Source: a virus. From it: a stretch of 25,082 nt of DNA. The DNA lies in the IMG/VR virus record IMGVR_UViG_3300044999_000016, positions 1 through 25,082 of that record. The stretch is one strand, 5' to 3'. The translations under genes were made by a program, and so were the position numbers. Shown in pieces: positions 7,448 through 24,980 of this stretch (the first letter of the stretch is position 1; each line of letters begins with the position of its first letter). Below the pieces are notes generated by a model that did no database searches, was not told the origin of the DNA, and saw only the letters and a program-made list of their open reading frames with translations.

Positions 7448-8404
7448 CTACCCAGCCATCAGGTTGCGAGGATTGAAATCGGTCCGCGGGCCGGCGGCTT
7501 GCTCAGCCTCGTATTCCTTGATCTCGCGGTCCATCCATGCGTTTTCAGCCCATGCCGGAAGTTCGGGGCGGATGATCCGCAGCGGGTAGGCGGGCCAGAT
7601 GCCGGACGCCATGCAATAGCGCCACGTCTTGAAGGCAAAATCGATCTGCTTGCGGCCGATGGTGAGCGCCGCCTCGCCGATCTCGTTGACGGTGAGCGCG
7701 AACGGCGGCTCATTCTCCTGGCAGACATAGCGATACTTGCGGCGGCCGGCGTTCTCCGGATCGAGTTCGTCGAGGATGCGTTCGTGCATCGCGGCCTGCA
7801 AATGCCAGCCTGCGGACGCCATCAGCCTGCCGGTCGCATAGGGCGAGGCCGACATGCCGGACGTTTTCAGATCCCACACCTCGGCGAGGTCCGGCGTGAT
7901 CCAGTCGATCATCGACCGCAGCCAGTGACCGTCCTCGCAATTGGCCACCACCACCTCGCTATCGCCGTGGCCGGTCACGAAGGCATCCTGGCAGTACGGG
8001 ATTTGCGAAAGCTGCTGCCTCGCCGCGACCACCATCTTGCTTGCGGTGTCGAAATGCTTGGCGAGGATCGGCTCCCGGCCGGCGTCAAAGGCCTCATCGC
8101 GTTCCGCCTTCGCGAGTTTGGTCATGAAGTTCGGATGGTCGATGATCGCCATCGACTTGCCGCGGCCCATCATGAGGCTGTGCGCGGCGTTCCCGATCGC
8201 CTTCACCTTGTCGTACTTCTCGCCTTCGTCCTCATCGCCAGTCGGCACATTCAGGCGAGGATGAGCCTGATAAGCGTGCAACGGCGACTGGGCGATGAGG
8301 ACTTTGGCGAGCGACTGGGTAAAGGATGGTTCGGGACAGGGATCAGCAAAGTAGTCCGCCGAATCCACACCGCGATAGATGCCGCCTTTGGTGATCTTCA
8401 GCAT
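7448..8404 (-). CDS. RecE-like PD-(D/E)XK exonuclease
   Basis: 318 aa from the ATG at 8404, preceded by AGGAG. Motifs: GNAAHSLMMGR (71-81) with a conserved His, SMIDWIT (D167), VWDLKTS (D178, K180) and a downstream HLQAAMHERIL helix (201-211). This is the layout of the exodeoxyribonuclease VIII/RecE-like family. Such enzymes resect double-stranded ends for phage recombination and probably work with the Sak4-like ATPase. The start overlaps the upstream gene by 7 bases. Confidence 0.85.
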   Translation of the reverse strand: MLKITKGGIYRGVDSADYFADPCPEPSFTQSLAKVLIAQSPLHAYQAHPRLNVPTGDEDEGEKYDKVKAIGNAAHSLMMGRGKSMAIIDHPNFMTKLAKAERDEAFDAGREPILAKHFDTASKMVVAARQQLSQIPYCQDAFVTGHGDSEVVVANCEDGHWLRSMIDWITPDLAEVWDLKTSGMSASPYATGRLMASAGWHLQAAMHERILDELDPENAGRRKYRYVCQENEPPFALTVNEIGEAALTIGRKQIDFAFKTWRYCMASGIWPAYPLRIIRPELPAWAENAWMDREIKEYEAEQAAGPRTDFNPRNLMAG

Positions 8405-8658
8405 GTCAGCGGCTCCTGCCACGTCTCGTTGCGGGCTTCATCTTCCGCGCGCAGCCGCCGGATGATCTCGCGGCCGCGATGGATGCGGCTTCTGACGGTG
8501 CCGGGCGCGAGTTCGGTTTGCTGCTCGATCTCCCGGTAGTTCATCTTCTCGTGGTGCAACAACTTGAGCGGCACCAGGAACAATGCGGGTATCCGGTCGA
8601 AGTACGCGGCGTCGGATGCGGCGAGCGTGAACGAAGGGTGTTGGCTGGATCGGCTCAT
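8398..8658 (-). CDS. Sigma-70 region 4-like DNA-binding protein
   Basis: 86 aa from the ATG at 8658 (ATGA overlap with the upstream stop). Residues ~38-68 (MNYREIEQQTELAPGTVRSRIHRGREII) are a close match in pattern to sigma factor region 4 / ECF HTH, including the GTVRSRIHRGR recognition helix. Region 2 is missing, so it is not a complete sigma factor. It could recruit or redirect host RNA polymerase or act as a simple HTH regulator. The preceding DAAYFDRIPALFLVPLKLLHHE resembles the helix before region 4. Confidence 0.75.
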   Translation of the reverse strand: MSRSSQHPSFTLAASDAAYFDRIPALFLVPLKLLHHEKMNYREIEQQTELAPGTVRSRIHRGREIIRRLRAEDEARNETWQEPLTC

Positions 8659-8777
8659 AGCGGCGTCGCCAGAATGATCAGCGCCGGACACCAGCCACCG
8701 AGGAACACGATGGTCGATATGATCTCGATCATCGTGCCGGTGCGGATTTCGGAGATTTCGCGGTTGTGATCACGCAT
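8655..8777 (-). CDS. Small membrane protein
   Basis: 40 aa from the ATG at 8775-8777: a short charged start, then IIEIISTIVFL-type hydrophobic sequence to the end (residues ~16-40), likely one membrane segment. It overlaps both neighbours by a few bases, which supports translation. The frame extends upstream, but there only over another gene. Function unknown. Confidence 0.5.
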   Translation of the reverse strand: MRDHNREISEIRTGTMIEIISTIVFLGGWCPALIILATPL

Positions 8778-12666: not shown

Positions 12667-12944
12667 CCGCGCCTCTCGCCCGCCGCAGCTTCATCACCGG
12701 CCTGATCTCGCTCGTCGCGGCGCCGGCGATCGTGCGGGCGGGCTCGCTGATGCCGGTGAAGGTGATGATTCAGCCGGCAATTCGATATCGCGCTATTTCG
12801 GTGGACGAAATGGTGGAGGGCATGATGGGCCGCCCGGCAATCTCAGCCGCCTTCTTCGATTTGATGGCGTTCGGCTCGTGCGCGGTCGAATTTGACGGTT
12901 CCGGTCAAGCTAGACACGTTGCGCTCCAAGAGATTTACCGATGA
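12663..12944 (+). CDS. Small protein with Tat-type signal peptide
   Basis: 93 aa from the ATG at 12663 (ATGA overlap). Residues 7-26 (RRSFITGLISLVAAPAIVRA) show a twin-arginine motif (RRSF), hydrophobic core and AxA-like end, typical of Tat export. The mature part includes a short ISVDEMVEGMMGRP segment. An exported protein in an early operon may act on the envelope or in superinfection exclusion; this is inference. The alternative is a chance hydrophobic start. Confidence 0.7.
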   Translation: MTAPLARRSFITGLISLVAAPAIVRAGSLMPVKVMIQPAIRYRAISVDEMVEGMMGRPAISAAFFDLMAFGSCAVEFDGSGQARHVALQEIYR

Positions 12945-13534
12945 CCGCGCCGATCCGCGAGATGCCGGCCTATGAACTCTATCGCGTCATCACCGATTAC
13001 GAGGCGCTGCAGGACGGGTTTCTCGATCGCATCGACGATCTCGATACGACGCTGGCGCTTCCGAGCTTTGCCGACGGGCAGGTGCAGAAGCTGCTGACCA
13101 AGAATCCGGGCAAGGCCATCACGCGGAAGCGGGACCACCGCAGCGCCTCGGCAAAACGCACATTCGGGTGGGAAAGCCTCGGAAAAATGCTCAAGGACAC
13201 GGGCCTGGCGCTGGTGCTGGTGGTCGATGATGCGCGGTTCGGGCCGGTGAAAGAGCAGTTGAGCAAGCGGAAACGGAAGCCCTCGCCGAGCATCGTGGGC
13301 CAAAAGCGGCCGACGTGGCTGTTCACACCCAAGAAAGCCAGCAAAATGCGGGCTAAATGGTGGAACAGCCTGACCGAGGCGCAGCAGAAAAAACATCAGC
13401 GAAAAGCACAAAAAGGACAGGCCGCGGCGCGGCGCAGGAAGAAATCAGTTGCGCTTGCCGCAGCTGGAGCACCGGAATCGGGGGGCGCTGGTGTTGTGCG
13501 GAACGCGTGCGCGGCCGCTATGACCGCAGTGTAG
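12941..13534 (+). CDS. Hypothetical basic phage protein
   Basis: 197 aa. Residues 1-125 are mixed (DGFLDRIDDLDTTLALP, ALVLVVDDARFGPVKEQLSKRKRK); residues ~135-175 are very basic (KKASKMRAKWW ... KKHQRKAQKGQAAARRRKK), so nucleic-acid binding is possible. The ATG overlaps the upstream stop. The last 30 codons run antisense over a zinc-ribbon gene on the other strand. It ends the rightward early operon. Confidence 0.7.
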   Translation: MTAPIREMPAYELYRVITDYEALQDGFLDRIDDLDTTLALPSFADGQVQKLLTKNPGKAITRKRDHRSASAKRTFGWESLGKMLKDTGLALVLVVDDARFGPVKEQLSKRKRKPSPSIVGQKRPTWLFTPKKASKMRAKWWNSLTEAQQKKHQRKAQKGQAAARRRKKSVALAAAGAPESGGAGVVRNACAAAMTAV

Positions 13535-13648
13535 ACACTGAATTGTGCGAAATGACGGCAGATAGCGCACGCGCACGCCGTCGAGCGTCTCGGCCTCATT
13601 GACCAAGATCTCGGCTTCCTGTCTCTGCCGCTCTTTTCGATTGAGCAC
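13445..13648 (-). CDS. Small zinc-ribbon protein
   Basis: 67 aa with GTG start at 13648 preceded by AAGGGA. Two metal-binding knuckles are visible: CLHCGH (C38, C41) and CSSCG (C60, C63), spaced as in zinc ribbons, after a charged amino helix. Likely a DNA- or protein-binding regulator. It is read leftwards after the HTH gene (53-base overlap) and converges on the rightward early operon, overlapping its last gene by 90 bases. Confidence 0.7.
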   Translation of the reverse strand: MLNRKERQRQEAEILVNEAETLDGVRVRYLPSFRTIQCLHCGHSGRARVPHNTSAPRFRCSSCGKRN

Positions 13649-13943
13649 GGTTGAAGTCCCTTACTGCCTTCGCTGCGATCTTTCTCAAATAAGCCTTCGA
13701 TGGTTTCCCTCGCGCTGGCTTGCCGTCCGCGTAGCGCTGTGCCTTGCGTTGCGTGCGCGCCAGGTATTGCAGCCTCGTGGCCCGGATATCGATCCCAGCC
13801 TCCCGCACCCACCGCGCCACCGTCTGCCTCGGTACCGACGCGACGGTCGCGCCCTCGGCCGGTGATGTCAGCGTGCCAGCCTTGAACATGCCGACGACCC
13901 AATCCCGAAGCGGATGACGTGCTGGTGCCATACGTTCCAGCAT
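13596..13943 (-). CDS. Helix-turn-helix DNA-binding protein
   Basis: 115 aa from the ATG at 13943; ATGs at 13931 and 14009 are alternatives. SPAEGATVASVPRQTVARWVREAG (~27-50) is a helix-turn-helix; the rest is basic and helical (TRLQYLARTQRKAQRY, AYLRKIAAKAVRDFNRAQSKR). A perfect palindrome (13931-13953) spans the start codons, implying autoregulation, and a GGTGCGTTGTT element lies 31 bases upstream of the ATG. Possibly a regulator of the late switch; this is inference. Confidence 0.7.
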   Translation of the reverse strand: MLERMAPARHPLRDWVVGMFKAGTLTSPAEGATVASVPRQTVARWVREAGIDIRATRLQYLARTQRKAQRYADGKPARGKPSKAYLRKIAAKAVRDFNRAQSKRAAETGSRDLGQ

Positions 13944-13953
13944 GGGGAACGTA
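13931..13953. promoter_or_regulatory. Perfect palindromic operator candidate
   Basis: TACGTTCC (13931-13938) and GGAACGTA (13946-13953) form perfect 8-bp arms with a 7-base spacer, sitting across the start of the leftward HTH gene. The core GTTCC-N7-GGAAC recurs at 14608-14624, and GTTCC-N6-GGAAC at 10266-10281 and 10313-10328. This is a strong candidate for autoregulation by the HTH protein or a sister regulator. Confidence 0.6.
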
Positions 13954-13962
13954 TCGATTTCG

Positions 13963-13974
13963 AACAACGCACCG
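13963..13974 (-). repeat. GGTGCGTTGTT element, copy 1 (leftward)
   Basis: On the minus strand CGGTGCGTTGTT, followed by CGAA then ATCGATA. The first 22 bases from GGTGCG differ from copy 2 at only three positions. It points towards the leftward HTH gene start 31 bases away. If that gene starts at 14009 the element would be inside its coding region. Confidence 0.6.
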
Positions 13975-14047
13975 TATTGTGCGGCCGCGCTCAATGCACA
14001 TGCATCCAAACGTTCAAGTTAGGCCCGTAAACATTGAAGAATGCGAC

Positions 14048-14060
14048 GGTGCGTTGTTGG
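14048..14060 (+). repeat. GGTGCGTTGTT element, copy 2 (rightward)
   Basis: CGGTGCGTTGTTGG at about 14048-14060, followed by CGATCGATA. It points towards the rightward gene at 14165 and is divergent from copy 1, 73 bases apart. The match to copy 1 extends over 22 bases. Confidence 0.6.
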
Positions 14061-14164
14061 CGATCGATAAATCATGCCATCACATCGCGCGTCCACACGC
14101 ACGCCCGCGTTCCTTCCACAGCGAGCCCGCGAGCGAGGACCACGACGAAGCGCAACGCGCGAGG

Positions 14165-14353
14165 ATGTCCGTGCCGCAGATCACAGCCCGCGAACTCCTG
14201 GCCGCCTATCGCCGCGGCCGCACAGCCGAACAGGAGATCGCACTCATCGAGTTTACGGAACTCAGCGAGGCCGAGCGGTGGGAGTTGCTGTTTATCGGCA
14301 TGGTCAGCGTCTCACACGATGCTCAAGCGGCTTTGAAGCAAGCACGGGATTGA
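14165..14353 (+). CDS. Hypothetical small acidic protein
   Basis: 62 aa from the ATG at 14165. Helical (ITARELLAAYRRGRTAEQEIALIEFTELSEAERWELLF), ending in DAQAALKQARD. The frame is open upstream to 13919 but would run over the divergent control region, so the shorter form is preferred. No recognised function. Confidence 0.6.
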   Translation: MSVPQITARELLAAYRRGRTAEQEIALIEFTELSEAERWELLFIGMVSVSHDAQAALKQARD

Positions 14354-14358
14354 CGTAC

Positions 14359-14499
14359 ATGCAGATTGTCATTCATCCAGATCAATTGCGTGACCTCAGG
14401 CTGATCGCCGATCCCTTCAGCATCTACGCTCAACGCAGAGCCCTTCGAACAGCCGGCATTGCTTGCGTCGTGTATCGCGGTGATGAGTGGTGGCATTGA
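14359..14499 (+). CDS. Hypothetical small protein
   Basis: 46 aa (MQIVIHPDQLRDLRLIADPF ... GDEWWH). Starts 5 bases after the previous stop, so probably co-translated with it. The composition is protein-like, with strand and helix, but there is no known motif. Confidence 0.55.
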   Translation: MQIVIHPDQLRDLRLIADPFSIYAQRRALRTAGIACVVYRGDEWWH

Positions 14500-14607
14500 C
14501 CTCATCGCACCAGCGAGTGAACTAACCTCACATCACACATATATCACACTCATATCGGGACTATATGCATGCACTCTATCGGCTCACTCCTACGTCAACA
14601 CCGTGCA

Positions 14608-14624
14608 GTTCCTGATGTAGGAAC
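14608..14624. promoter_or_regulatory. GTTCC-N7-GGAAC inverted repeat
   Basis: GTTCCT-GATGT-AGGAAC, perfect 6-bp arms. The core and spacing (GTTCC-N7-GGAAC) are the same as in the palindrome at 13931-13953, about 670 bases away. It lies ahead of the late genes, so the same regulator may act on both. Confidence 0.5.
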
Positions 14625-14760
14625 ATGGTGCTTCCATCAACGTATTGATATTGCTGATGTATATGGATGCGCGCGTGATGGCTGTGTCAGCTGTGCGTCA
14701 GTCGAGCGCTGGCGAAGCGGGTGAATCGGCGAAATGCATGGGCTTCCAGGGCAAAAGACC

Positions 14761-14781
14761 GGGGCGGGGTGGGGGTGGGGG
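14761..14781 (+). other. G-quadruplex-prone tract
   Basis: Four runs of 4, 4, 5 and 5 G separated by single bases (14761-64, 14766-69, 14771-75, 14777-81) fit a very stable G-quadruplex pattern on the plus strand. It lies ~150 bases before the small terminase gene in a noncoding stretch, so it could affect late transcription, replication or packaging initiation. Confidence 0.55.
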
Positions 14782-14886
14782 TGACCTGGAGCGCCGGCGG
14801 GATATTCGACCTACCCCCTTAATTTCGCGGCCCTTTCCCCAAAACCTGTTGCTGATATGTCACGCCCTGTTCTGAGGTCGGGCGTG

Positions 14887-14924
14887 CGGTGCGTTGCTGA
14901 CGCTAACCGTTAACCGCACCTTCC
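14887..14924 (+). repeat. GGTGCGTTGCT element, copy 3
   Basis: CGGTGCGTTGCTGAC begins at 14887; GGTGCG (14888-14893) is complementary to CGCACC (14915-14920), then TTCC at 14921. The start ATG of the small terminase is at 14929, only a few bases beyond. It shares both ends with copy 6, including AACCGCACCTTCCG. Confidence 0.7.
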
Positions 14925-14928
14925 GGGC

Positions 14929-15495
14929 ATGGATTTTTCGGAAATCGAACTTGGACCGCGGATGTCGGCGCTGCCGGAGCGCGAGCGGAAATTCGTGTGG
15001 TTTTACTTGACCAACGAGGGGAAGCCGAACGGGGCACAGGCGGCGCGGGATGCGGGGTATTCGGACAAATCGGAGGGCGCGAAGGTGCTTGCGCATGCGC
15101 TGCTGCACCGGGAGCGGGTGATCCTGGCGCTGGAGGAGGTCGGCCGGAAGGCATTCCGCGGATTGCTGGGGCCGGCAGTGAAGGCGGCGGCGAAGTTGAT
15201 CGAGGCGGACAAGCATCCGGATCACAGCAAGGCGGTGTTCACGACGCTGGCGCGGCTCGGGCTCGGCGAGAAATCGACGGTCGACGTCAATGTCGGCGGC
15301 GAGTTGACGGTCAACCATACGGACAGCGCGCTGAACGACCTGCGGACGCTGCTGGCGCTGGCGGTGCCGGAGGAGAAGCTGATCGAGATCTTCGGGTTCT
15401 CGGGCCTGTCGCGCTACCGGAAGATGCTGGCCGAGACGGACGCCAAGGCGCCGAAGCTGATCGAGCACCGGACGGATGAGGCGCCGGGTGGCTGA
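14929..15495 (+). CDS. terS: Terminase small subunit
   Basis: 188 aa. LPERERKFVWFYLTNEGKPN ... AARDAGYSDKSEGAKVLAHALL (~15-65) is the helix-turn-helix and opening pattern of Terminase_2-type small subunits. These bind the phage packaging site and load the large subunit. The start may be 14929 or Met12 (14962). No Shine-Dalgarno sequence precedes 14929; a repeated element sits there instead. First gene of the late module. Confidence 0.85.
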   Translation: MDFSEIELGPRMSALPERERKFVWFYLTNEGKPNGAQAARDAGYSDKSEGAKVLAHALLHRERVILALEEVGRKAFRGLLGPAVKAAAKLIEADKHPDHSKAVFTTLARLGLGEKSTVDVNVGGELTVNHTDSALNDLRTLLALAVPEEKLIEIFGFSGLSRYRKMLAETDAKAPKLIEHRTDEAPGG

Positions 15496-15961
15496 TCAGG
15501 AAACCTACTTCACCGGAAAGCCCTGCGGTCGTGGGCACGTTGCGCCGAGGCGGAAAAGTAATAGGACCTGCCTCGATTGTGAGTTGGAGCGCCAGAAAGC
15601 CTACTACGCGCAAAGTCCTGAGAAATATCAGGACCGCGCGCGCGGATATCGGTCAAGGGACCCTGAAAAAGCGCGGGCCTATGCGCGCCAGCGCTATGCC
15701 AAAAATCCAGAGAAGCACCGCGCCGTCCAGAGAAAGTTCAAATATGGGCTGACCAGCGAAGAATTCGAAGCGCTGGCGAAATCGCAAAACTATCGCTGCG
15801 CGATCTGTGAAACACCAGAATTGCACGTCGACCACGATCATGGCACGGGCGCCGTACGTGGGTTGCTTTGTGGGCCCTGCAACCGGATGTTGGGATGCGC
15901 GAAAGATGACCCGGATGTGCTCGAGCGAGCTATCGAATACCTCCGCAGATCAAAGACATGA
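15488..15961 (+). CDS. Phage endonuclease VII-like (recombination endonuclease)
   Basis: 157 aa from GTG 15488, preceded by GAGG and overlapping TerS by 8 bases; ATG 15476 is the alternative. A zinc-binding pattern (CGRGH near the start, CLDC) and the endonuclease VII core YRCAICETPELHVDHDHGTG ... LLCGPCNRMLGCAKDD are clear. It resolves branched DNA before packaging or acts as a homing-type nuclease. Placement between the terminase genes is seen in other phages. ATGA overlap with terL. Confidence 0.88.
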   Translation: MADQETYFTGKPCGRGHVAPRRKSNRTCLDCELERQKAYYAQSPEKYQDRARGYRSRDPEKARAYARQRYAKNPEKHRAVQRKFKYGLTSEEFEALAKSQNYRCAICETPELHVDHDHGTGAVRGLLCGPCNRMLGCAKDDPDVLERAIEYLRRSKT

Positions 15962-17493
15962 CCGATCATCTGGAGGAGGGTCCTGATCCCAATGATATCA
16001 GGCGCCACGCTAAAAAAATGTACACGGAGATGCAGTACCGGCAGAAGTACCGGCGCATCGATTTTTACAAGCCAAATTTCAAGCAGGAAGAGTTTCACAA
16101 CCTCGCCAAGACCGAGAAGATGATCCGGGCCGGCAACCAGCTCGGCAAGACGCAGAGCGCGGCCGCGCAGATGGCGATGGATTCCTGCAACATCTATCCG
16201 GACTGGTACACTGGCCGCCGCTTCACCAGTCCGCCAAAGATCGAGCGGCCCTATGACTTCATCGGCTGGGCCGGCTGCACCACCTCGGACAAGACCCGCG
16301 ACGGTGCGCAGGTCAAGCTGTTCGGCGACATCAAGAAGCAGGGCGGGCTCGGGCAGGGGCTGATCCCACTCGATAACATCGTCGGCCGGCCCGATATGGC
16401 GCGCGGCATCGCCAATTTCATCGATACCGTCAATCTGCGCCGCGAGGACGGCGGCGACGCCATCATCCGCTTTAAGACGTTCATGATGGGCCGCGAGGCG
16501 TGGCAGGGCGAGGCGGTGGACGTGGTGTGGGGCGACGAAGACCCCGGCGACATGGAAATCTACGAGGAGTGCCAGGCCCGCCTCACCACCACGCGCGGCA
16601 TCATCATCTGGTCGATGACCCCGATGCTCGGCTCCTCGCCGGTCCGCAAGCACTTCAAGAGTGCAACCGCCGACGTCGGCGAGGTGCTGATGACGATCTA
16701 CGACGCCGCGGTATCGAAGCGCGGCCACATCCCCGACGAAGACATCCCCGGCATCATCAAGCGGTACGGCAAGAAGGCCGCCACCCGCGCCATGGGCGGC
16801 GACGCGCAGGGCCAGGGCTCGGTGTTCGAAACTGAGCCGGACACGATCAAGCACACGCTCCGGCCGGCCAACGTTCCCGAATACTGGCCGTGGCTGTGGG
16901 CACTGGATTTCCGGCATTCCGGGCAGGAGACCGGCGGCCATCCGTTCGCCGCGGTGCTGCTGACCTGGGACCGCGACAACGACGTGGCCTACATCATGGA
17001 CGGCTTTCGCCTGTACGGCATGGCCGCCAGCCATGTGGCGCGGATCAAGGAAAACCCGATGTGGCGCGCACCGGTGGCATGGCCGCATGACGGCGGGGTC
17101 GGCGCCGGCGTCCAGACCAACGAGACCATTGCGGCCATCTACAAGAAACTCGGCCTCAACATGCTGCCCACGCATGCCACATTCTCCGGCGGCGGCTACA
17201 ATCTCGAGGCCGGCCTGACCGTGATGGAAGAGCGCTTCGCCGCCAAGAAGCTGCTGGTGGCCGCGCATTTCTTCGACTGGTTCGATGAATATGGCGGCTA
17301 TCACCGTAAGGACGGCAAGGTGATCAAGGTCGACGACGACCTTTTGAGCGCGACCCGCGTCGGCTGCATGGACCTCCGCTTCGCCAAGACGACCGAGCGC
17401 TTCCGCGCCTATGCCGCCAGCCAGGTCTCCGGCTTCGCCATCGGCACCCCGAACCATCCCGACGGCGACATGGACGCTTTTACGGGCTCCTGA
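15958..17493 (+). CDS. terL: Terminase large subunit
   Basis: 511 aa, typical length. ATPase: RAGNQLGKT at 57-65 (Walker A) and VDVVWGDED at ~187-195 (Walker B), with WSMTP (219-223) as a coupling-type motif. Nuclease: ALDF with D317 plus later acidic residues (PHDGG, VDDDLLSATR). It drives DNA into the procapsid and makes the cuts. The ATG overlaps the endonuclease VII stop by 4 bases. The stop codon is followed at once by a GGTGCGTTGCT element. Confidence 0.95.
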   Translation: MTDHLEEGPDPNDIRRHAKKMYTEMQYRQKYRRIDFYKPNFKQEEFHNLAKTEKMIRAGNQLGKTQSAAAQMAMDSCNIYPDWYTGRRFTSPPKIERPYDFIGWAGCTTSDKTRDGAQVKLFGDIKKQGGLGQGLIPLDNIVGRPDMARGIANFIDTVNLRREDGGDAIIRFKTFMMGREAWQGEAVDVVWGDEDPGDMEIYEECQARLTTTRGIIIWSMTPMLGSSPVRKHFKSATADVGEVLMTIYDAAVSKRGHIPDEDIPGIIKRYGKKAATRAMGGDAQGQGSVFETEPDTIKHTLRPANVPEYWPWLWALDFRHSGQETGGHPFAAVLLTWDRDNDVAYIMDGFRLYGMAASHVARIKENPMWRAPVAWPHDGGVGAGVQTNETIAAIYKKLGLNMLPTHATFSGGGYNLEAGLTVMEERFAAKKLLVAAHFFDWFDEYGGYHRKDGKVIKVDDDLLSATRVGCMDLRFAKTTERFRAYAASQVSGFAIGTPNHPDGDMDAFTGS

Positions 17494-17531
17494 CGGTGCG
17501 TTGCTGGCAATGGCCGGCCCGATCACCTTCC
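17494..17531 (+). repeat. GGTGCGTTGCT element, copy 4
   Basis: CGGTGCGTTGCTGGC starts directly after the terL TGA (17491-17493); CACCTTCC follows with TTCC starting 33 bases from GGTGCG. It resembles copies 3 and 6 in sequence and spacing but with a weaker inner stem. It lies just upstream of an intrinsic terminator. Confidence 0.65.
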
Positions 17532-17561
17532 CGCTGTCCTCCCTGGACGAAACGCGACCTT

Positions 17562-17598
17562 GCGGCGGGGAACTGGACAAGCGCCCCGCCGCCTTTTT
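17562..17598 (+). terminator. Intrinsic terminator after terL
   Basis: GCGGCGGGG (17562-17570) pairs perfectly with CCCCGCCGC (17584-17592) across a 13-base loop and is followed by CTTTTT. This is a standard rho-independent terminator. It separates packaging genes from the head genes, so downstream expression needs read-through, antitermination or a new promoter. Confidence 0.8.
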
Positions 17599-17609
17599 GG
17601 AGCACCCTG

Positions 17610-17921
17610 ATGCCTGACAGCGAAATCGATTCCGGCCCGGTCGATCCCTTCGAAGCCTCCGAACCCGCCGCCGCGTCACAGCGCCTGCGCGCGTTCGAGG
17701 ATGAACACCTCGGCGAGGGCGCGCCGCGCATCTCCGGCAAGCTCGAACGCGGCCACGGCTCGCTGTTCAGCCGCCTGCCGATCGAAAGGCAGAAGGAGCA
17801 TGCCGCGATCGAAAAGACGGTCGCCACCGAACAAAAGCTGGCCGATGCGCACACCGCGCTGCTGAAGGCCGAAGCGGATCACAACGCCGCCCTCGACGAC
17901 GCCTCCAGGTTCGGCGGCTGA
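17610..17921 (+). CDS. Hypothetical phage late protein, coiled coil
   Basis: 103 aa from the ATG at 17610. An acidic/Pro/Ala start, then FEDEHLGEGAPRISGKLERGHGS and a coiled coil at ~60-100 (RQKEHAAIEKTVATEQKLADAHTALLKAEADHNAAL). Four small genes of this kind often precede the portal gene in related phages. Exact role unknown. Confidence 0.7.
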   Translation: MPDSEIDSGPVDPFEASEPAAASQRLRAFEDEHLGEGAPRISGKLERGHGSLFSRLPIERQKEHAAIEKTVATEQKLADAHTALLKAEADHNAALDDASRFGG

Positions 17922-17922
17922 C

Positions 17923-18126
17923 ATGGCGATGCCGGGCATGACCGCCGGTCTTTCGCCCGCCGGCGCCGACCTCGGCCTTGGCGGTGCGCTGAGCCAGCAG
18001 GTTCAGAACGAGACCGAGGAGGAGCGCAAGAAGCGGATGGCGCAGATCCAGCAGCAACAAATGCTCGGTCCGTCCGGATCAATGGCGGTGACGGCGCTGT
18101 TCGGAGGAGGCTTCAATGGCCGATGA
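17923..18126 (+). CDS. Hypothetical small late protein
   Basis: 67 aa: Gly/Ala-rich start, then QQVQNETEEERKKRMAQIQQQQMLGPSG, a short charged helix. The pattern is common directly upstream of portal genes in phages of this type. Begins one base after the previous stop. Confidence 0.7.
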   Translation: MAMPGMTAGLSPAGADLGLGGALSQQVQNETEEERKKRMAQIQQQQMLGPSGSMAVTALFGGGFNGR

Positions 18127-18322
18127 TACTTGGGAGACCACGAAGGCAGCAATCCACAAAAGCGTCGCCGATCATCTTTCCAGCTTGGACTATGTGCTCG
18201 GCGGCCCGCAGAACGCTGAAAAATGGAAGCCTCGTGAGGGTGCTTCGGACGAATACAAGCGCGCCACCACGGGAATGGGCGAATCTCAGGCGGTCAACGA
18301 TCTCGGATTAGGCAAAAAGTAG
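18116..18322 (+). CDS. Hypothetical small late protein
   Basis: 68 aa, good GGAGGAGG ribosome site, 11-base overlap with the upstream gene. Polar helical sequence (ETTKAAIHKSVADHLSSLDYVLGGPQNAEKW). Function unknown; co-operonic with the portal. Confidence 0.65.
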   Translation: MADDTWETTKAAIHKSVADHLSSLDYVLGGPQNAEKWKPREGASDEYKRATTGMGESQAVNDLGLGKK

Positions 18323-18786
18323 TGCAGGCTATTGAAAAGCGGCTGGCCTTCGACCTGCGCGCCACATGGCAGGCGCGGGTTCTTTTGGCCGCCCAGGCCA
18401 GGAACGACGGCGTGATCGGTGCGGTGGCGCTGTCGGTGCTGGCGCATAATTACGACGATGCACTGCCGACGCTGCTCAAGGTTCTGTTCCCCGGCTTCGA
18501 ATCCATCACGCCGCCGTTTCTGTGCTCGGCCGGCAAGGTCGACAAGTCGGGTGCGGTGGTTGCCGACCTAGTCGAGCGCGCCGGCGTCATCACCAGGAAT
18601 TACCGGCTCTATCGCGACGAGATCGCGCTGCGCGACGATTTCCGCCGCCTCGCCGACGAACTCAAGCTGAAGGACGCCGACCGCATCGAACTGTTTGCCG
18701 CCGTGCAGCGCTGGGTGGTCGCCGACCGCCGTCTCGATCCGAGCATGGATCCGAAGGACCCCGATGCCAAGCGCCTCCTCAACTGA
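18322..18786 (+). CDS. Hypothetical late protein upstream of portal
   Basis: 154 aa from a GTG at 18322 that overlaps the previous TAG by one base. Helical throughout; the last segment WVVADRRLDPSMDPKDPDAKRLLN is acidic. A 23-base overlap with the portal start suggests translational coupling. No known domain recognised. Confidence 0.65.
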   Translation: MQAIEKRLAFDLRATWQARVLLAAQARNDGVIGAVALSVLAHNYDDALPTLLKVLFPGFESITPPFLCSAGKVDKSGAVVADLVERAGVITRNYRLYRDEIALRDDFRRLADELKLKDADRIELFAAVQRWVVADRRLDPSMDPKDPDAKRLLN

Positions 18787-20521
18787 GGTCACCCTGTACC
18801 GGGACGAGACCGCGCCGCGCGCGCCGCGGCAGATTTCCGATCGCGAGACCGAGATCGTCACCGGCATTTTGCGCGAGCTCGGACAATACCAGTCCCGCCG
18901 CTCGACTTTTGCGGCCCAATGGGAGGAAGTTTCCCAACTGATCCTGCCGACGTCGCGCAACACGTTCTATTTCGGCAATTACAATTTCCCCGGCGCCAAG
19001 AAAACCCAGCAGCAGGTCGACGCCTCCGGCGCGCTGGCGCTGCATCGGTTCTGCGCGATCGCCGATTCGCTGGTCACCCCGCGCAACATGCAGTGGCACG
19101 GCCTGCAGGGCGACGAATACGTGATGAAGGACCGCGCCACCCGGCTTTGGTTCGAGAACACCACCAAGCTCCTGTTCCGCCACCGCTACGCCGCGACCGC
19201 AAATTTTGCCTCGCAGAACTACAACAACTGGCAATCGCTCGGCGCGTTCGGCAATTCGACCATGTATGTCGACAAGTTCGACAACCGCTGGCACGGCGGC
19301 GGCCGGGGCCTGCGCTACAAATCCGTACCGCTCGGCGAGACGTTCTTCGGCGAAAACCACCAGGGCAAGGTGGATCGCATGATCCGCTGGTTCCGGCTGA
19401 CGCCGTATCAGGCGGTGCAGAAATGGGGCCGCGACCGGCTTCCCGAGCCGCTGGTCATGCCGCTGCAGCAGGACAGCCAGTTCGGCTACAGCTTCCTGCA
19501 TTGCGTCCGCCCGCGCACTGACGATTACGACCCGGAAGCCATCGACGAACGCTCGCTGCCGTATCAGTCGTTCTACGTGTCCGTCGAGGGCAAATGCCTG
19601 ATGCAGCCGGAGAGCGGCTATCGCGTGTTCCCGTTCGCGACCGCGCGCTACGACCAGGCGCCCGGCGAGGTCGAGGGCCGCGGACCGGCGCAAATCGTGC
19701 TGCCGTCCCTGAAAACCCTCAACGCGCAAAAGGTCACCTTCCTCAAATCCGGCCACCGCGCCGCCGATCCCGTGCTGCTGATGTACGACGACGGGCTGGT
19801 CGGGATGAACATGCGGCCCGGCGCGCAGAACGTCGGCGGCGTCACGGCGGACGGCAAGCCTTTGGTGCACACGCTCCCCGTCGGCGACATCCAGATTTCC
19901 GAAAAGATGATGGGCGAGGAGCGCGGCATCATCGACGACGTGTTCCTCGTCACCATCATGAAAACGCTGGTCGACAATCCGAACATGACAGCGACGCAGG
20001 TGATCCAGCTCGTCAACGAGCGCGGCATGCTGGTGGCGCCGACGCTCGGCCGCCAGCATACCGAATATGTCGGCGGCATCGTCCCGCGCGAACTCGATCT
20101 GCTGGCCGAGATGCAGATGCTGGACCAGGTCCCGCCGCGGCTGCGCGAGGCCCTCGGCCGCGATGGCCTCTCGGCGATCGGCGTCAAGGACACCTCGCCG
20201 CTTTCGCTGATGGCCAGCGCCGGCGAGGCCGCGGGCTTCCTGCGCACGCTCGAGCAGGTCCGGGAGCTCGTCAACATCACGCAGGACATGAGCCTGCTCG
20301 ATCCCTTCGACTTCGACACTGCGACGCCGGAGATCGCCCGCATCAACAACGTGCCGGAGCGCTGGATGGCGGACGGCCAGGCCATCGCCGCCAAGCGCCA
20401 GAACCGCGCCAAGCAGATCGCTCAGAAACAGGCAACCGACGCTCTGCCCAACCAGGCTGCGATGATCAAAGCCCGCGCGGTGGCCAGTAAGACCGGCGCA
20501 CTGCAAGGGGTTCCGCAGTGA
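18764..20521 (+). CDS. Portal (head-to-tail connector) protein
   Basis: 585 aa. Start ATG at 18764 has GAAGGA 7 bases upstream; the frame extends further but there overlaps the previous gene. Blocks such as RSTFAAQWEEVSQLILPTSRN, LVTPRNMQWHGL, FGNSTMYVDKFD, GRGPAQIVLPSLKTLN and EYVGGIVPRELDLLAEMQ match the podoviral head-tail connector family (BPP-1/P22-like portal group). It forms the dodecameric ring for DNA entry. The downstream gene overlaps by 4 bases. Confidence 0.9.
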   Translation: MPSASSTEVTLYRDETAPRAPRQISDRETEIVTGILRELGQYQSRRSTFAAQWEEVSQLILPTSRNTFYFGNYNFPGAKKTQQQVDASGALALHRFCAIADSLVTPRNMQWHGLQGDEYVMKDRATRLWFENTTKLLFRHRYAATANFASQNYNNWQSLGAFGNSTMYVDKFDNRWHGGGRGLRYKSVPLGETFFGENHQGKVDRMIRWFRLTPYQAVQKWGRDRLPEPLVMPLQQDSQFGYSFLHCVRPRTDDYDPEAIDERSLPYQSFYVSVEGKCLMQPESGYRVFPFATARYDQAPGEVEGRGPAQIVLPSLKTLNAQKVTFLKSGHRAADPVLLMYDDGLVGMNMRPGAQNVGGVTADGKPLVHTLPVGDIQISEKMMGEERGIIDDVFLVTIMKTLVDNPNMTATQVIQLVNERGMLVAPTLGRQHTEYVGGIVPRELDLLAEMQMLDQVPPRLREALGRDGLSAIGVKDTSPLSLMASAGEAAGFLRTLEQVRELVNITQDMSLLDPFDFDTATPEIARINNVPERWMADGQAIAAKRQNRAKQIAQKQATDALPNQAAMIKARAVASKTGALQGVPQ

Positions 20522-20781
20522 CCGCAACCCTTCCCGAAATTCTCGGCGATCGCCAGCGCGCGTATCAACTCACCATGAAGGATGCCGCCGGCGCTGCCGT
20601 GCTGGCCGACCTCGCCATTTTCTGCCGCGCCGACGAAACCTGTGTCGTCCCCGGCGATCGCGACCGCACCTATGTTCTGGAAGGCCGGCGCGAAGTGTAT
20701 TTGAGAATTATGGATCATCTCAAGCTATCGACCGAACAGCTTGTCAAAAAATACACCGTGCAGGCGAAGTCAGCCCAATGA
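20518..20781 (+). CDS. Bbp19-like phage protein
   Basis: 87 aa from GTG 20518 (GTGA overlap with portal). AAGAAVLADLAIFCRADETCVV ... TYVLEGRREVYLRIMDHLKLSTEQLV matches the Bbp19-type pattern named after a Bordetella phage BPP-1 protein of unknown function found beside portal genes. Supports a BPP-1-like head module. Confidence 0.7.
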   Translation: MTATLPEILGDRQRAYQLTMKDAAGAAVLADLAIFCRADETCVVPGDRDRTYVLEGRREVYLRIMDHLKLSTEQLVKKYTVQAKSAQ

Positions 20782-21275
20782 AAATCTGTCGCGTGTGCAA
20801 GATCGAAAATGACATATCCTATTTTTAGGCACGGAAGGAAAGCCGCGACGGGCGCTGCCATGAATGCAAGGCGTGTCTCGGTGCGAGAACATCGAAGAAT
20901 CAAAAGGCGGATCATGCTGGCCGCCGCGCAAAGGTAGATCGGTGGCAGGCCACCAACAGAGAAAAGAGCCTTGAACTCAAGCGGAAATACTATGCGGACC
21001 GGAAGGATTATTATCTCGCCAAGGGCAGAGAGCACCGCAAGTCGAGCCCTCACCTTCACCGCGCGCGTATAGCGCGTGGGTTGATCGCGAGGAAATCAAA
21101 GCGATCTACGAGCAGGCCGCCATTGCGGGAATGCAAGTCGATCACATCCATCCCCTGCAAGGGGAGACTGTCTGCGGACTTCATGTTCCGTGGAATCTTC
21201 AATTGCTCACTGCAACGGACAACCAGCGCAAGAGCAATAAGTTTGAAACCCGGCCCGCCAAAGGAGCGATAAGCC
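20778..21275 (+). pseudogene. Broken HNH endonuclease gene
   Basis: An ATG at 20778 (ATGA overlap) begins MKICRVCKIENDISYF then meets TAG. Reading on in frame gives more of the same protein (ARKESRDGRCHECKACLG ... KRKYYADRKDYYLAKGREHRK) to ~21055, where the frame must change to reach the HNH part SAWVDREEIKAIYEQAA ... VDHIHPLQGETVCGLHVPWNLQ. So there is one in-frame stop and one frameshift; the nuclease motif (VDHIHPL ... HVPWNLQ) is still recognisable. It was probably a homing endonuclease inserted between the portal and scaffold genes and has decayed; a sequencing error could mimic part of this. Confidence 0.75.
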
Positions 21276-22214
21276 ATGACGACCGAACCGACCCCTCCGA
21301 AGAGCCACCTCCATTTTTTCAACCATCACACCGGCCGCCCGCGATTTCATTTCGACGCGGTGAGCGACGCTGCTGCGGCCACGGCTGCTGCTGCCGCCGG
21401 CGGTGGTGCAAAGCCGTGGCACGACGGCGTCGAGCCCGAAGTGCTCGGGTTCTGGCAGAACAAGGGCCTGCCGCTCGACGATCCCAAGACGTTCGCCTCC
21501 AAGCTGACCGAACAGTATCGGGCGGCCGAGAAGCACATCGGCGCGCCGCCGGATCAGCTGGTGCGCCTGCCGAAGGCGGATTCCAAGCCGGAGGAGATCA
21601 GCGCGTTCCGCCAGCGTATCGGCGTGCCGGCCGAAGCCAAGGACTATGATTTCACCGCGATCAAGGACGGCGCCGGCCAACCGCTGGCGCAGCCGCTCGC
21701 GGATGCGATGCGCGCCAGCTTCCACGCCCACGGCATCACCAAGGACGCGGCGCCCGCCGTCGCGCTCGACGTCGTCAAGGCACTGGACAGCATCAAGACC
21801 ACGCAGGCCACGCTCAGCGCCGGCAAACTCGCCGACGAGAAACTGACGCTGGAAAAGAACTGGGGCGGCAAGGAATCGGCCACCTACCAGTTCAACCACC
21901 TGCAGGCGATGGAAGGCGCGCGCCGGCTCGGCATCACGCCGGAAGCGGTCAAGGCGCTGGAAAGCCAGATCGGCTATTCGTCGGTCATGGACGCCATGCG
22001 CAAGGTCGGTGCGGCCCGCAGCGAGGACATCTTCGTGAATCCGCCCAGCGGCGGTGGCCCCAACGGACAGGTGACAACCCGCGAGGGCGCGATGGCCCGC
22101 AAGACCGAGTTGATGGCGGACAGGGCCTGGGCCGCGCGTTTCACCGCCGGCGACGCCGAATGCCGGCGCGAATATGACCGACTCAACACCATGATCCACG
22201 GAGACGCAGCATGA
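21276..22214 (+). CDS. Capsid scaffolding/assembly protein
   Basis: 312 aa with an AAAGGAG ribosome site. The first 45 residues are Ala/Gly-rich; the body is Ala/Lys/Glu-rich and helical (DDPKTFASKLTEQYRAAEKHIGAPP, AALDVV-type helices), as expected of phage scaffolds, and it lies directly before the capsid genes. It would guide coat assembly and leave the mature head. Family assigned by position and composition. Confidence 0.7.
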   Translation: MTTEPTPPKSHLHFFNHHTGRPRFHFDAVSDAAAATAAAAAGGGAKPWHDGVEPEVLGFWQNKGLPLDDPKTFASKLTEQYRAAEKHIGAPPDQLVRLPKADSKPEEISAFRQRIGVPAEAKDYDFTAIKDGAGQPLAQPLADAMRASFHAHGITKDAAPAVALDVVKALDSIKTTQATLSAGKLADEKLTLEKNWGGKESATYQFNHLQAMEGARRLGITPEAVKALESQIGYSSVMDAMRKVGAARSEDIFVNPPSGGGPNGQVTTREGAMARKTELMADRAWAARFTAGDAECRREYDRLNTMIHGDAA

Positions 22215-22519
22215 GCATCGAGGAAAGCGCCGAGACCAAGATCCCCGCGCCGAAGAAAAAGCGCAAGGTCGCGAAGAAGCGCGCGGCCGCAGCCAAGCCG
22301 GCCCCGAAGGCCGCCGACGGCATCTACACCGGCCTCACGGTCAAGGATTGCTGTAACGCCTGCAACGCGCAGGGTTGCGTAATCTCGGGCAGTTTTTACT
22401 GCGCGCACCCGCGCAAGGGTGGCCTGCACGCGGCCGAACAGCAGGACGGCAGCGCGATGCAGCGCCGCCGGGATGCCGAGAAGGTAATCGGCAAGCAGAA
22501 GCTGGTCGTGAACGACTGA
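22211..22519 (+). CDS. Lys-rich/Cys-rich small protein
   Basis: 102 aa. The basic start PKKKRKVAKKRAAAAKPAPK (14-33) resembles histone-like tails, and a Cys cluster follows (CCNACNAQGC ... FYCAH; Cys 47, 48, 51, 56, 64), possibly zinc-binding. Coupled to the scaffold gene by ATGA. Possibly a DNA- or capsid-associated protein; not assigned. Confidence 0.65.
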   Translation: MSIEESAETKIPAPKKKRKVAKKRAAAAKPAPKAADGIYTGLTVKDCCNACNAQGCVISGSFYCAHPRKGGLHAAEQQDGSAMQRRRDAEKVIGKQKLVVND

Positions 22520-22520
22520 G

Positions 22521-22565
22521 CGGTGCGTTGTTAAATGGATTCAGGCGCGGCAGTTTCCGCGCCTG
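22521..22565 (+). repeat. GGTGCGTTGTT element copy 5 with hairpin
   Basis: CGGTGCGTTGTT starts two bases after the previous stop codon; TTCC again lies 33 bases from its start. A perfect hairpin CAGGCGCGG-CAGTTT-CCGCGCCTG (22542-22565) occupies the second half. There is no poly-T tail, so it is probably an RNA structure or inefficient terminator in front of the capsid gene. Confidence 0.6.
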
Positions 22566-22582
22566 TTGATACCCGAGTGTCC

Positions 22583-22680
22583 GGTCCCCGCAAGGGTAAG
22601 GCCGGTTCGGAAGTGACGGCCCCCGCAAGGACAAGGCTGAAGGACTGATGGCCCCCGCGCGCATTCGCATGGGCAAGGCC
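22583..22680 (+). repeat. Three short repeats in the capsid leader
   Basis: CCCCGCAAGG-like units at about 22586, 22621 and a diverged one near 22652, each followed by an AAGGC block, spaced 32-35 bases. They lie in the leader between copy 5 and the capsid ATG. This might be a regulatory leader for strong capsid expression. Confidence 0.45.
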
Positions 22681-22714
22681 GCCGATCGTTCAACCCCTTT
22701 CAGGCGGGATAGCC

Positions 22715-23635
22715 ATGTCCGAGAATCTCTCGAAACTCTTTACGACCCAGTTTTCCGACGTCCTCAAGCTGAAGCTCCAGCAGACGATGTCGATGCTCCG
22801 CGGCACGGTCATGGAAGGTTTCCATGTCGGCAAGCAGGCATCGCCCGTTCAGTATGCCGGTGCCGTGCAGATGAAGCCGCCGCAGGGCCGCTTTGCCCCG
22901 ATCGGCCGCCAGGATATCGATTTCACCCGGCGTTGGGTGGTACCCGTCGACAAGGACGCAGCCCAGTTGGTCGACAATTTCGACAAGCTCAAGACCGCGA
23001 TCGATCCTACCTCGCAGGAAACCGCCGCGGCCGCAGCCGCCGTCAACCGCGAATTCGACGACCGGATCATCGGCGCTGCATTCGCCACCGCGCTGCTCGG
23101 CGACGGCAACACGCCGAACGCCTTTACCAACGAGACCTTCTCGACCGCCAGCTGGCAGATTGCCTCGACCCTCGGCTCGTCCGCGGCGTCGGGTCTCACG
23201 GTCGCGAAGATGATCGAGGCCAAGCGCGTGCTGCGCAAGGCACAGGTTCCGCAGGAAGAAGCCAAGACCTGGATCACCAATTCGCAGGGCGAAAGCGACC
23301 TGCTCAACCAGGTGCAGGTGGTCTCGACCGAGTTCAACGACCGCCCGGTTCTGACCGATGGCGTCGTGTCTCGCTTCCTCGGCTTCAACATCAAATACTC
23401 CGAGCGCCTGACCTCGACGTCGAGCCTGCGCCAGAACATGGCCTATGTGCAGTCCGGCCTCTACCTCGGCCTCTGGCAGGACATTTTCAACGACGTCCGC
23501 CAGCGCCCCGACCTGACCGGCCTGCCGTGGCAGATCTACACCATGATGTCGTCCGGCGCGACGCGGCTTGAGCCGGGCCGCCTGCTGCAGGTGCTTTGTG
23601 CCGACACCTCGGCCGCCGCCGACGTAACGCCTTAA
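22715..23635 (+). CDS. Major capsid protein
   Basis: 306 aa. RRWVVPVDKDAAQLVDNFDKLKTAID ... NREFDDRIIGAAFATALLGDGNTPNAF and ETFSTASW/AKMIEAKRVLRKAQVPQEEAKTWITN are patterns of the BPP-1 Bbp17-like capsid group. Located after the scaffold and before a cement-like protein. The ATG at 22715 is preceded by GGCGGGAT, a modest site. It forms the icosahedral shell. Confidence 0.85.
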   Translation: MSENLSKLFTTQFSDVLKLKLQQTMSMLRGTVMEGFHVGKQASPVQYAGAVQMKPPQGRFAPIGRQDIDFTRRWVVPVDKDAAQLVDNFDKLKTAIDPTSQETAAAAAAVNREFDDRIIGAAFATALLGDGNTPNAFTNETFSTASWQIASTLGSSAASGLTVAKMIEAKRVLRKAQVPQEEAKTWITNSQGESDLLNQVQVVSTEFNDRPVLTDGVVSRFLGFNIKYSERLTSTSSLRQNMAYVQSGLYLGLWQDIFNDVRQRPDLTGLPWQIYTMMSSGATRLEPGRLLQVLCADTSAAADVTP

Positions 23636-23645
23636 GGAGAGACCA

Positions 23646-24179
23646 ATGGCTGTCGATCATGTGAAGTCCACCGTTATCACCAACCTCGACGCATCTCCGG
23701 CGGTTGCGCCGACTGCCGGCGAGGGCGGCCCCGCGCCGCTCAAGGTCAATTCGTCCGGCCCCGTCACCGGTCTCGCGGCGTCCTCGATCAACGCGACCTA
23801 CCAGTTCCTGCGGGTGCCCTCGAACGCCAAGATGAAGGCGCTGTTCTTCGAATCCGCAGCCCAGATCGCCGGTGCGATGAACGTCGGCCTCTATTACGCC
23901 ACCGACGGCGAGGGCGGGCAACCGGTCGCGCTGCTCGCGGCGAATGCGATCAGCGCGTCGCTGTTTGCTGCGGCGGTCTCGCTGGCGGCGCTGTCGCAGC
24001 CGACCAATATCGTCAACCAGAGCGGCACCTTCACCGCCGACAAGCAGAACCAGCCGCTCTGGCAGGCTGCCGGTCTGGCGTCCGATCCGGGCGGGTTCTT
24101 CGACATCGTCGGCACGCTCTCGACCGCGATCACTACCGGCACCGGGGTCATGGGCATGACCGCGATGTACACGGACTGA
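23646..24179 (+). CDS. Capsid decoration/cement-like protein
   Basis: 177 aa, GGAGA ribosome site. Strand-rich and Ala/Gly-rich (TYQFLRVPSNAKMKALFFESAAQIAGAM ...). In BPP-1 the gene after the coat encodes the Bbp16 cement protein, and this position and composition fit. Assigned by position, not by a decisive motif. Confidence 0.6.
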   Translation: MAVDHVKSTVITNLDASPAVAPTAGEGGPAPLKVNSSGPVTGLAASSINATYQFLRVPSNAKMKALFFESAAQIAGAMNVGLYYATDGEGGQPVALLAANAISASLFAAAVSLAALSQPTNIVNQSGTFTADKQNQPLWQAAGLASDPGGFFDIVGTLSTAITTGTGVMGMTAMYTD

Positions 24180-24188
24180 GGTGGAACC

Positions 24189-24413
24189 ATGGCTGACCAC
24201 TATGTGGCCTTGAACGATGGAGTCGAGGGGTTCAAATACTCCGACTTCATCACCGGCACTGCGACCACCGCCGGGACCAATCAGGTCGAACTGCGCGTGC
24301 AGGACGGCACCAACCTGACCGCCAAGGACGTCGACAACATACTGGAGGCGTTTCGGCGCTTCATCCAGAACAAGCAGCAGGTGGTCGCCGCCGGCTTCCA
24401 GCTGAATTTGTAG
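24189..24413 (+). CDS. Hypothetical small structural protein
   Basis: 74 aa (MADHYVALNDGVEGF...). Beta-rich middle and a helical end (KDVDNILEAFRRFIQNKQQVVAAGF). Probably virion-associated, judged by position only. Confidence 0.65.
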   Translation: MADHYVALNDGVEGFKYSDFITGTATTAGTNQVELRVQDGTNLTAKDVDNILEAFRRFIQNKQQVVAAGFQLNL

Positions 24414-24415
24414 CC

Positions 24416-24628
24416 ATGGCCCAGGACCGCTGGATCAACATCACGCTCGATCCGAATGCCGCGAGCAAGGCGGATCGAGCGAACGATCGCCACGGCAAGG
24501 CGCTCGGCGCCTCGGCGGCCGGTGACCTGACAATTTCCTTCGACACCTCGAAATTGACGTCGCTGTCGCTGTTCCGCTCGGCCGTCGCCGCTGCGGTTGA
24601 GCATGCGTCGTCTGGCCTGAAGCCTTAG
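24416..24628 (+). CDS. Hypothetical small structural protein
   Basis: 70 aa, strand-rich (RWINITLDP, LTISFDTSKLTSLSLFRSAVAAAVEHA). It follows the preceding stop after two bases, so is probably co-translated. Unknown role in the head or tail. Confidence 0.65.
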   Translation: MAQDRWINITLDPNAASKADRANDRHGKALGASAAGDLTISFDTSKLTSLSLFRSAVAAAVEHASSGLKP

Positions 24629-24638
24629 CGGGACCGTC

Positions 24639-24938
24639 ATGGCACTCTGGAACAAAACCGATCGCGTTGTCTTCACCAACCAGGCCCCGGGCACCATCGG
24701 GCCGTTCACGTTGCGCGGCGGCAGCTACTGGATCGAGACGGCATCCACCGGCGCTGGCACCATCGACCTCCAGAAGCTCGGGCCCGACGGTGTGACCTTC
24801 ACGGCGCGCATCACCCAGATCGTCGCGACCGCCGGCCAGCAGACCATTTCGCTGCCGCCCGGCACCTATCGATGGGTCATCGCGACGTTCACTGCCAATA
24901 ATTTAGAGATTACGAGAGTACCTACCGCCGTCGAGTAG
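24639..24938 (+). CDS. Hypothetical small structural protein
   Basis: 99 aa, beta-sandwich-like pattern (GTIGPFTLRGGSYWIETASTG ... QQTISLPPGTYRWVIATFTAN) of the kind seen in small virion or tail-surface proteins. Stop at 24936-24938 is followed within 5 bases by a repeated element. Confidence 0.65.
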   Translation: MALWNKTDRVVFTNQAPGTIGPFTLRGGSYWIETASTGAGTIDLQKLGPDGVTFTARITQIVATAGQQTISLPPGTYRWVIATFTANNLEITRVPTAVE

Positions 24939-24942
24939 CCAA

Positions 24943-24980
24943 CGGTGCGTTGCTGGCCTAGCCCGGCAACCGCACCTTCC
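24943..24980 (+). repeat. GGTGCGTTGCT element, copy 6 (strong hairpin)
   Basis: CGGTGCGTTGCTGGCC and CCGGCAACCGCACC form a 13-bp stem (24944-24976) with a single bulged C and a 6-base loop, then TTCC (24977-24980). The next ATG is at 24986. It shares both arms with copy 3. There is no poly-T, so it is not a standard terminator. Confidence 0.75.

Follow-up and report, generated by a model that had tools for sequence, protein, structure and literature searches.

The stretch of DNA considered here (the window) is 25,082 nt long and corresponds to positions 1-25,082 of the IMG/VR virus record IMGVR_UViG_3300044999_000016. It codes for a T7-type portal protein (PF12236), a capsid protein of the Phage_capsid_2 family and terminase genes. 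Its nearest cultured relatives are HTVC010P-type pelagiphages, whose genes for capsid and portal are related to its own; with an uncultured podovirus from spring water, they reach a capsid identity of at most 42%. Gene boundaries of the late region are marked by a short repeated element, GGTGCGTTGYT, and comparison with related phages points to a late promoter. A preliminary description of the sequence had listed six copies. All of them were found again, copies 3 to 6 lying one base further along than it had placed them (Table 1). Based on base frequencies, about 0.02 exact copies are expected by chance on both strands of 25 kb, and the pattern read backwards does not occur in the window. The finer remarks of that description hold as well: in copies 3 to 6 the distance between the first G and TTCC is exactly 33 bases, copies 4, 5 and 6 come close behind stop codons, and the sequence shared by copies 3 and 6 is AACCGCACCTTCCG.

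Table 1. Copies of the element and associated features in the window (HTH, helix-turn-helix; ORF, open reading frame).
Feature	Position	Strand	GGTGCGTTGYT	Particulars
Candidate regulator gene (family 10)	12941-13534	+		XRE/HipB-like HTH domain, basic C-terminal region; just upstream of the late region
Zinc-ribbon ORF after small HTH gene	13448-13648	-		Weak Pfam match (1.3e-4)
Small HTH-protein gene (MAPARHPLRDW...)	13599-13931	-		ORF; predicted leaderless from copy 1
Copy 1, complete predicted promoter	13939-13973	-	13963-13973	Box 1 13973-13961; -10 box CATGCT 13944-13939
Copy 2, box 1 only	14048-14058	+	14048-14058	No acceptable -10 box; box 2 score -6.2, lowest of 79
Copy 3, predicted promoter of terminase small subunit gene	14888-14922	+	14888-14898	-10 box CACCTT 14917-14922; ATG 14929 at predicted +1
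Terminase small subunit gene	14929-15495	+		phrog_51 (2.7e-8); no Shine-Dalgarno; predicted leaderless
Copy 4, predicted promoter just 3' of terminase large subunit stop	17495-17529	+	17495-17505	-10 box CACCTT 17524-17529
Intrinsic terminator	17562-17598	+		GCGGCGGGG...CCCCGCCGC followed by CTTTTT; between copy 4 promoter and its gene
Copy 5, predicted promoter of major capsid gene	22522-22556	+	22522-22532	-10 box CAGTTT 22551-22556
Perfect 9-bp inverted repeat	22542-22565	+		CAGGCGCGG / CCGCGCCTG; exactly flanks copy 5 -10 box; fold z -3.19
Three small RNA hairpin modules of the capsid-gene 5' leader	22581-22605, 22616-22640, 22648-22682	+		
Copy 6, predicted promoter of next tail-region gene	24944-24978	+	24944-24954	-10 box CACCTT 24973-24978, 7 nt, ATG 24986

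With the capsid protein as the query, 60 related loci were collected (L numbers denote loci, G numbers genomes). The exact motif is common in the contigs of these loci, with 54 of 56 matches on the late strand, as against two for the pattern read backwards, and whole records where it is present contain 2-8 exact copies. The promoter alignment was built from 79 late-strand copies in 12 related phages (5-8 per phage). Copies occupy the same gene boundaries from phage to phage; as a case in point, copy 3 has a counterpart at the corresponding place in all 11 other genomes. The preliminary description had named beforehand a lack of enrichment between the genes of related phages as the observation that would count against it; this enrichment was looked for, and its reading was not refuted. 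Individual phages favour their own version of the motif: GGTGCGTTGTT has eight copies in G006, GGTACGTTGCT has six in G002 and AGTGCGTTGCT has four in G003, each being among the most frequent 11-mers of its genome. Repeated 11-mers sought in relatives that lack the element were mostly codon-driven repeats. A literature search found no description of the motif or of such a system, and did not find the late promoter of HTVC010P-type pelagiphages described.

Alignment of the 79 copies establishes that the element consists of two boxes. Positions 1-12 are near-invariant, conservation is weak up to about position 27, and then a second block appears. Box 1, on the -35 side, is GGTGCGTTGYTGG, with variants that depend on the phage (GGTGCG, AGTGCG or GGTACG). 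Box 2, extracted by an expectation-maximization search with variable spacing, is CAYNNTCC and comprises a -10 hexamer, [C/T]AYNNT; its total score is 448, whereas none of 100 shuffled sets exceeds 36. It starts at position 29, 30 or 31 in 25, 40 and 14 copies respectively, which, counted from TTGNNN (positions 7-12) as the -35 to YAYNNT as the -10, makes spacers of 16, 17 or 18 bp in the same numbers, the geometry of sigma70 promoters. The A(-11) and T(-7) conserved in sigma70-class -10 boxes are present in 93% and 97% of copies, the T being the sixth base of the hexamer. A -35 box near TTGACA and a T at -12 are lacking: TTG is kept, then followed by CTG/TTG-like bases, and C stands at -12 in 69% of copies. 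Scanning all collected loci with the two-box matrix returns 353 matches, a count that includes the training copies and overlapping or duplicate loci, versus a single one in reversed sequence. In relatives without the element, promoters of the TTGACA type occupy its position ahead of the capsid gene (for example, TTGACA with TATATA in L181/L182 and TTGACA in L176/L178), with the leader hairpins kept downstream. In the window, copies 1, 3, 4, 5 and 6 are complete predicted promoters.

The position of start codons provides a further line of evidence. In 40 of the 79 copies the conserved T is followed, at a distance of 5-8 nt and mostly of 6 or 7 nt, by an ATG that opens a frame of 40 codons or more and stands at the predicted +1, as compared with 6.4% of random positions. 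Because the ATG is at the expected +1 and a Shine-Dalgarno-like sequence is rare (two of these 40), the corresponding mRNAs are predicted to be leaderless, while most of the other 39 copies are followed by a downstream start codon with a Shine-Dalgarno sequence. This location of the ATG indirectly supports a start of transcription some 7 nt downstream of the -10 box. In mycobacteria, a -10 hexamer and a Shine-Dalgarno sequence are described as excluding each other ahead of the start codon (PMC4633059), and the phage copies display the same contrast; in Methylorubrum extorquens, 7% of mRNAs are leaderless (PMC9320726). In the window, the -10 box of copy 1 is followed by GGAACGT and then by the ATG (13931) of a small HTH gene, and in L127, G018, G004 and L149 a related HTH gene likewise has a minus-strand copy in front of it at this location. 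The gene behind copy 6 is predicted to be leaderless from its sequence, and its counterparts in relatives start likewise, its own frame running out of the window. The gene served by copy 4 has a leader, with a Shine-Dalgarno sequence GGAG and its ATG at 17610, and that of the capsid gene, served by copy 5, is about 150 nt long. Among the options offered by the preliminary description, a late promoter or activator site is thus the one that gained ground, through the second box at sigma70 spacing, the start codons, the sigma70-like promoters of relatives and the shared gene boundaries.

The element was also found when it was not used to choose the sequences. Loci fetched via family 18, a protein family encoded next to the candidate regulator in many of these phages, carry it in 22 of 25 cases (52 matches versus one in the control), and it is present in 11 of 13 contigs that were not among the earlier loci. 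A contig from Bradyrhizobium sp. 141 (L230) has the element beside a capsid protein of another family, phrog_212, so that the element goes with more than one kind of structural cassette. For this phage group, Bradyrhizobium is plausible as a host genus; the capsid protein itself, searched against bacterial genomes, found no relative.

It is highly probable, in our opinion, that GGTGCGTTGYT makes up the upstream half of a late promoter in two parts, with a phage factor on box 1 and the host polymerase on the -10 box. Host RNA polymerase would contact [C/T]AYNNT 16-18 bp downstream of the TTGNNN of box 1, while a phage DNA-binding factor, most likely the HTH protein of family 10, would recognise box 1 and replace or supplement the sigma contact at -35. 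The 5-8 copies of a genome would then act together to turn on the blocks of terminase, capsid, tail and later genes, with mRNAs beginning at the A of the ATG for about half of the copies, and with a leader carrying a Shine-Dalgarno sequence for the rest. Where the contig extends over the region, family 10 is present in every element-bearing genome (10 of 10); in four relatives that lack the element it was not found. Its structure model has a predicted local distance difference test score (pLDDT) of 77.8 and its fold matches in PDB are mostly to the XRE family, all with E at least 0.2; no informative family match was obtained for the candidate regulators. The gene that comes next belongs to family 18 in many phages and is a minus-strand HTH gene in others, each having its own, often degenerate, copy of the element, at whose predicted +1 the gene starts. 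The model of family 18 is confident and has no fold match. In the window, the HTH and zinc-ribbon pair under copy 1 (13931-13448, minus strand) holds the place of the plus-strand family 18 gene of other phages. Homologues of the small HTH protein were retrieved with a hidden Markov model in L127, L136, L149, L111 and L021, and its Pfam matches are weak (YfeC-like, 0.0098; PhyR sigma-like, 0.065).

The same promoter could be read by the host sigma factor alone, with no phage activator and box 1 as a long -35 element, which we deem unlikely. The spacing is that of sigma70-class promoters, and the sigma factor is likely to be the host's, since Sigma70_r2 was sought in 10 genomes and found in none. 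However, box 1 changes in a concerted manner between phages and box 2 does not, even though differing host species could still account for this, and a near-invariant -35 block of 10-13 bp exceeds what sigma region 4 usually reads. The similarity of box 1 copies is 11.86 of 13 within phages versus 10.79 between phages, a difference reached in none of 2000 label permutations, in a test that is inflated and partly circular because copies were collected with partly genome-specific patterns. For box 2 there is no within-phage excess (910 of 2000 permutations). The k-mer counts, where GGTGCGTTG is absent from both G002 and G003, are free of that circularity. That box 1 varies by phage and box 2 does not suggests a phage factor at -35 and the host polymerase at -10. 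A phage sigma factor was considered and rejected, there being no Sigma70_r2 match in the 10 genomes and no conservation of region-4-like ORFs. One such ORF of 97 amino acids (8401-8691, minus strand) matches sigma-70 region 4 (PF08281, 7.8e-6) without other sigma domains; neither it nor a partial match in G006 is conserved in the other phages.

To be sure, besides the circularity just mentioned, several points weigh against a promoter shared by a phage factor and the host polymerase. The T at -7 is almost invariant in the phage copies, whereas work on Methylorubrum reports no conservation of it there or in other Alphaproteobacteria (PMC9320726), a difference that makes the form of the polymerase uncertain. 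Copy 2 is without a -10 box, and is possibly a solo binding site. The sequence of family 10 diverges fast, its fold matches are weak, and naming it as the regulator is a guess from co-occurrence. Finally, a simple promoter does not explain the inverted repeat of the capsid gene or the terminator that follows copy 4.

This terminator brings in a second alternative, promoter-linked antitermination as in lambda Q, where a phage factor would join the polymerase at box 1 and take it past terminators. As a terminator follows the copy 4 promoter here and in several relatives, attenuation or a Q-like process is possible. The window, G001, G004, G019, G018 and G008 each have an intrinsic terminator some 25-50 nt beyond the start that is predicted, and terminators are found downstream of 9 of 79 copies versus about 1% at random. 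Yet the majority of copies are free of them, those seen being chiefly at the copy that follows the terminase, and in G008 and G018, where the terminator sits between two copies, the second comes after it, as if it merely ended the upstream unit. We consider a Q-like explanation quite improbable.

Antitermination of the nut/put type or processing, by an RNA element within the transcript, had also been envisaged in the preliminary description, and its standing as a general explanation is very poor. Copies 3 and 6 can form hairpins, and the capsid-gene copies have a conserved inverted repeat. The 13-bp fold noted for copy 6 is real (-21.5 kcal/mol, z -2.05), but it is no general feature of the element: an exact complement of the first six bases of box 1 is found nearby in only 4 of the 79 copies in 12 phages, so that the hairpins of copies 3 and 6 look incidental. 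They are not conserved, and for this reason we rejected the RNA element as a general explanation; the folds of copies 3 and 4 are unremarkable relative to shuffled sequences (z -0.86 and -0.76). The blocks are spaced as in sigma70 promoters, genes without a Shine-Dalgarno sequence begin at the predicted +1, and relatives have sigma70-like promoters at the same site. The hairpin noted at copy 5 fares better. It is strong, and kept in the capsid-gene copies of relatives, most of which have the inverted repeat above the level of shuffles, its arms covarying with compensatory differences between phages. Such a repeat around the -10 box is found chiefly in the capsid-gene promoter, and conserved RNA hairpins as in nut/put sites were not seen in the other copies. 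Taken as a whole, the interpretation given in the preliminary description is partly supported.

Least credible of all is a promoter for a T7-like, single-subunit phage RNA polymerase: many short conserved sites on one strand and a T7-type portal would suit it, but the T7-type site is contiguous, whereas the element has two boxes at a variable distance of 16-18 bp, and PF00940 was found in 0 of 20 records, in a search where the control also matched nowhere, leaving absence unproven.

The proposed bipartite promoter can be set beside known systems. In T4 middle promoters, a phage-specific box takes the place of the -35 next to a -10 box of the host type (PMC7403470). There, a MotA box and a sigma70 -10 are used through sigma appropriation by AsiA and MotA, likewise with several copies per genome. 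The element would work like a T4 middle promoter, without belonging to that class. The MotA box is centred near -30, whereas box 1, with its 10-13 bp, reaches from about -41 to -29, an invariant TTG being kept at -35, and leaderless mRNAs are predicted for about half of the genes. No MotA or AsiA homologue was identified, no MotA or AsiA model having been searched. Leaderless promoters of actinobacteria have a -10 hexamer about 6 nt ahead of an RTG start codon, comparable to the 6-7 nt of the phage copies, and both go without a Shine-Dalgarno sequence, with the A of the ATG as +1 (compare PMC4633059). The actinobacterial ones are the housekeeping form of the host, while in the phages a phage-specific -35 block accompanies the -10 and the genes served are late ones. 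Lambda Q and pR' resemble the present case in that late control lies just downstream of the regulator gene (here a candidate) and that a terminator is close behind the promoter, at one place here. Lambda has one such promoter, in contrast to several dispersed ones with box 1 overlapping the -35, and no Q-like match was found among the candidate proteins scanned. A bolder proposal, which is no more than tentative, would be a new switch module in which an HTH protein, with no relation to MotA, Q or phage sigma factors, would redirect an alphaproteobacterial RNA polymerase to a dedicated -35 box, make leaderless late mRNAs common, and have moved between phages with unrelated capsid genes.

The capsid-gene leader deserves mention in its own right. 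As the alignment of whole leaders was too gapped for covariation analysis, its modules were compared singly. The hairpin GGNCCCCGCAAGGACAAGNCC has an outer stem of 4-6 bp with several pair types, a 1x4 C/ACAA internal loop and a CC-GCAA-GG tip. Two or three such modules are present in most capsid-gene relatives (L127-L186), and are kept even where the promoter has been replaced. A scan of the window with Rfam 15 gave no match at E <= 1, and the leader hairpin is not in Rfam. By eye, a similar single hairpin is visible in MW202898. Elsewhere, the terminase promoter of nearly all 12 phages is preceded, at a distance of some 60-150 bp, by a G-rich tract (GACCGGGGCGGGGTGGGGGTGGGGG, 14757-14785 in the window) and a CCCCYTNATTTCGCGG-like block (about 14808-14833), possibly a packaging site or a G-quadruplex. 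An endonuclease VII-like ORF (PF02945, 4.4e-26) occupies 15476-15961, between the two terminase genes, and a second endonuclease-like stretch, apparently decayed, lies at about 20779-21270, between the portal and scaffold genes.

The proposed promoter, which this family of phages appears to use for turning on its late, particle-building genes, is previously undescribed. It gives a likely logic for the control of late genes in uncultivated soil phages that seemingly infect Bradyrhizobium-like bacteria, and makes the transcription units and true start codons of these phages predictable from sequence. The concerted change of box 1 alone makes the search for a cognate regulator directly testable, and the phages themselves offer a natural test of when leaderless mRNA is used.

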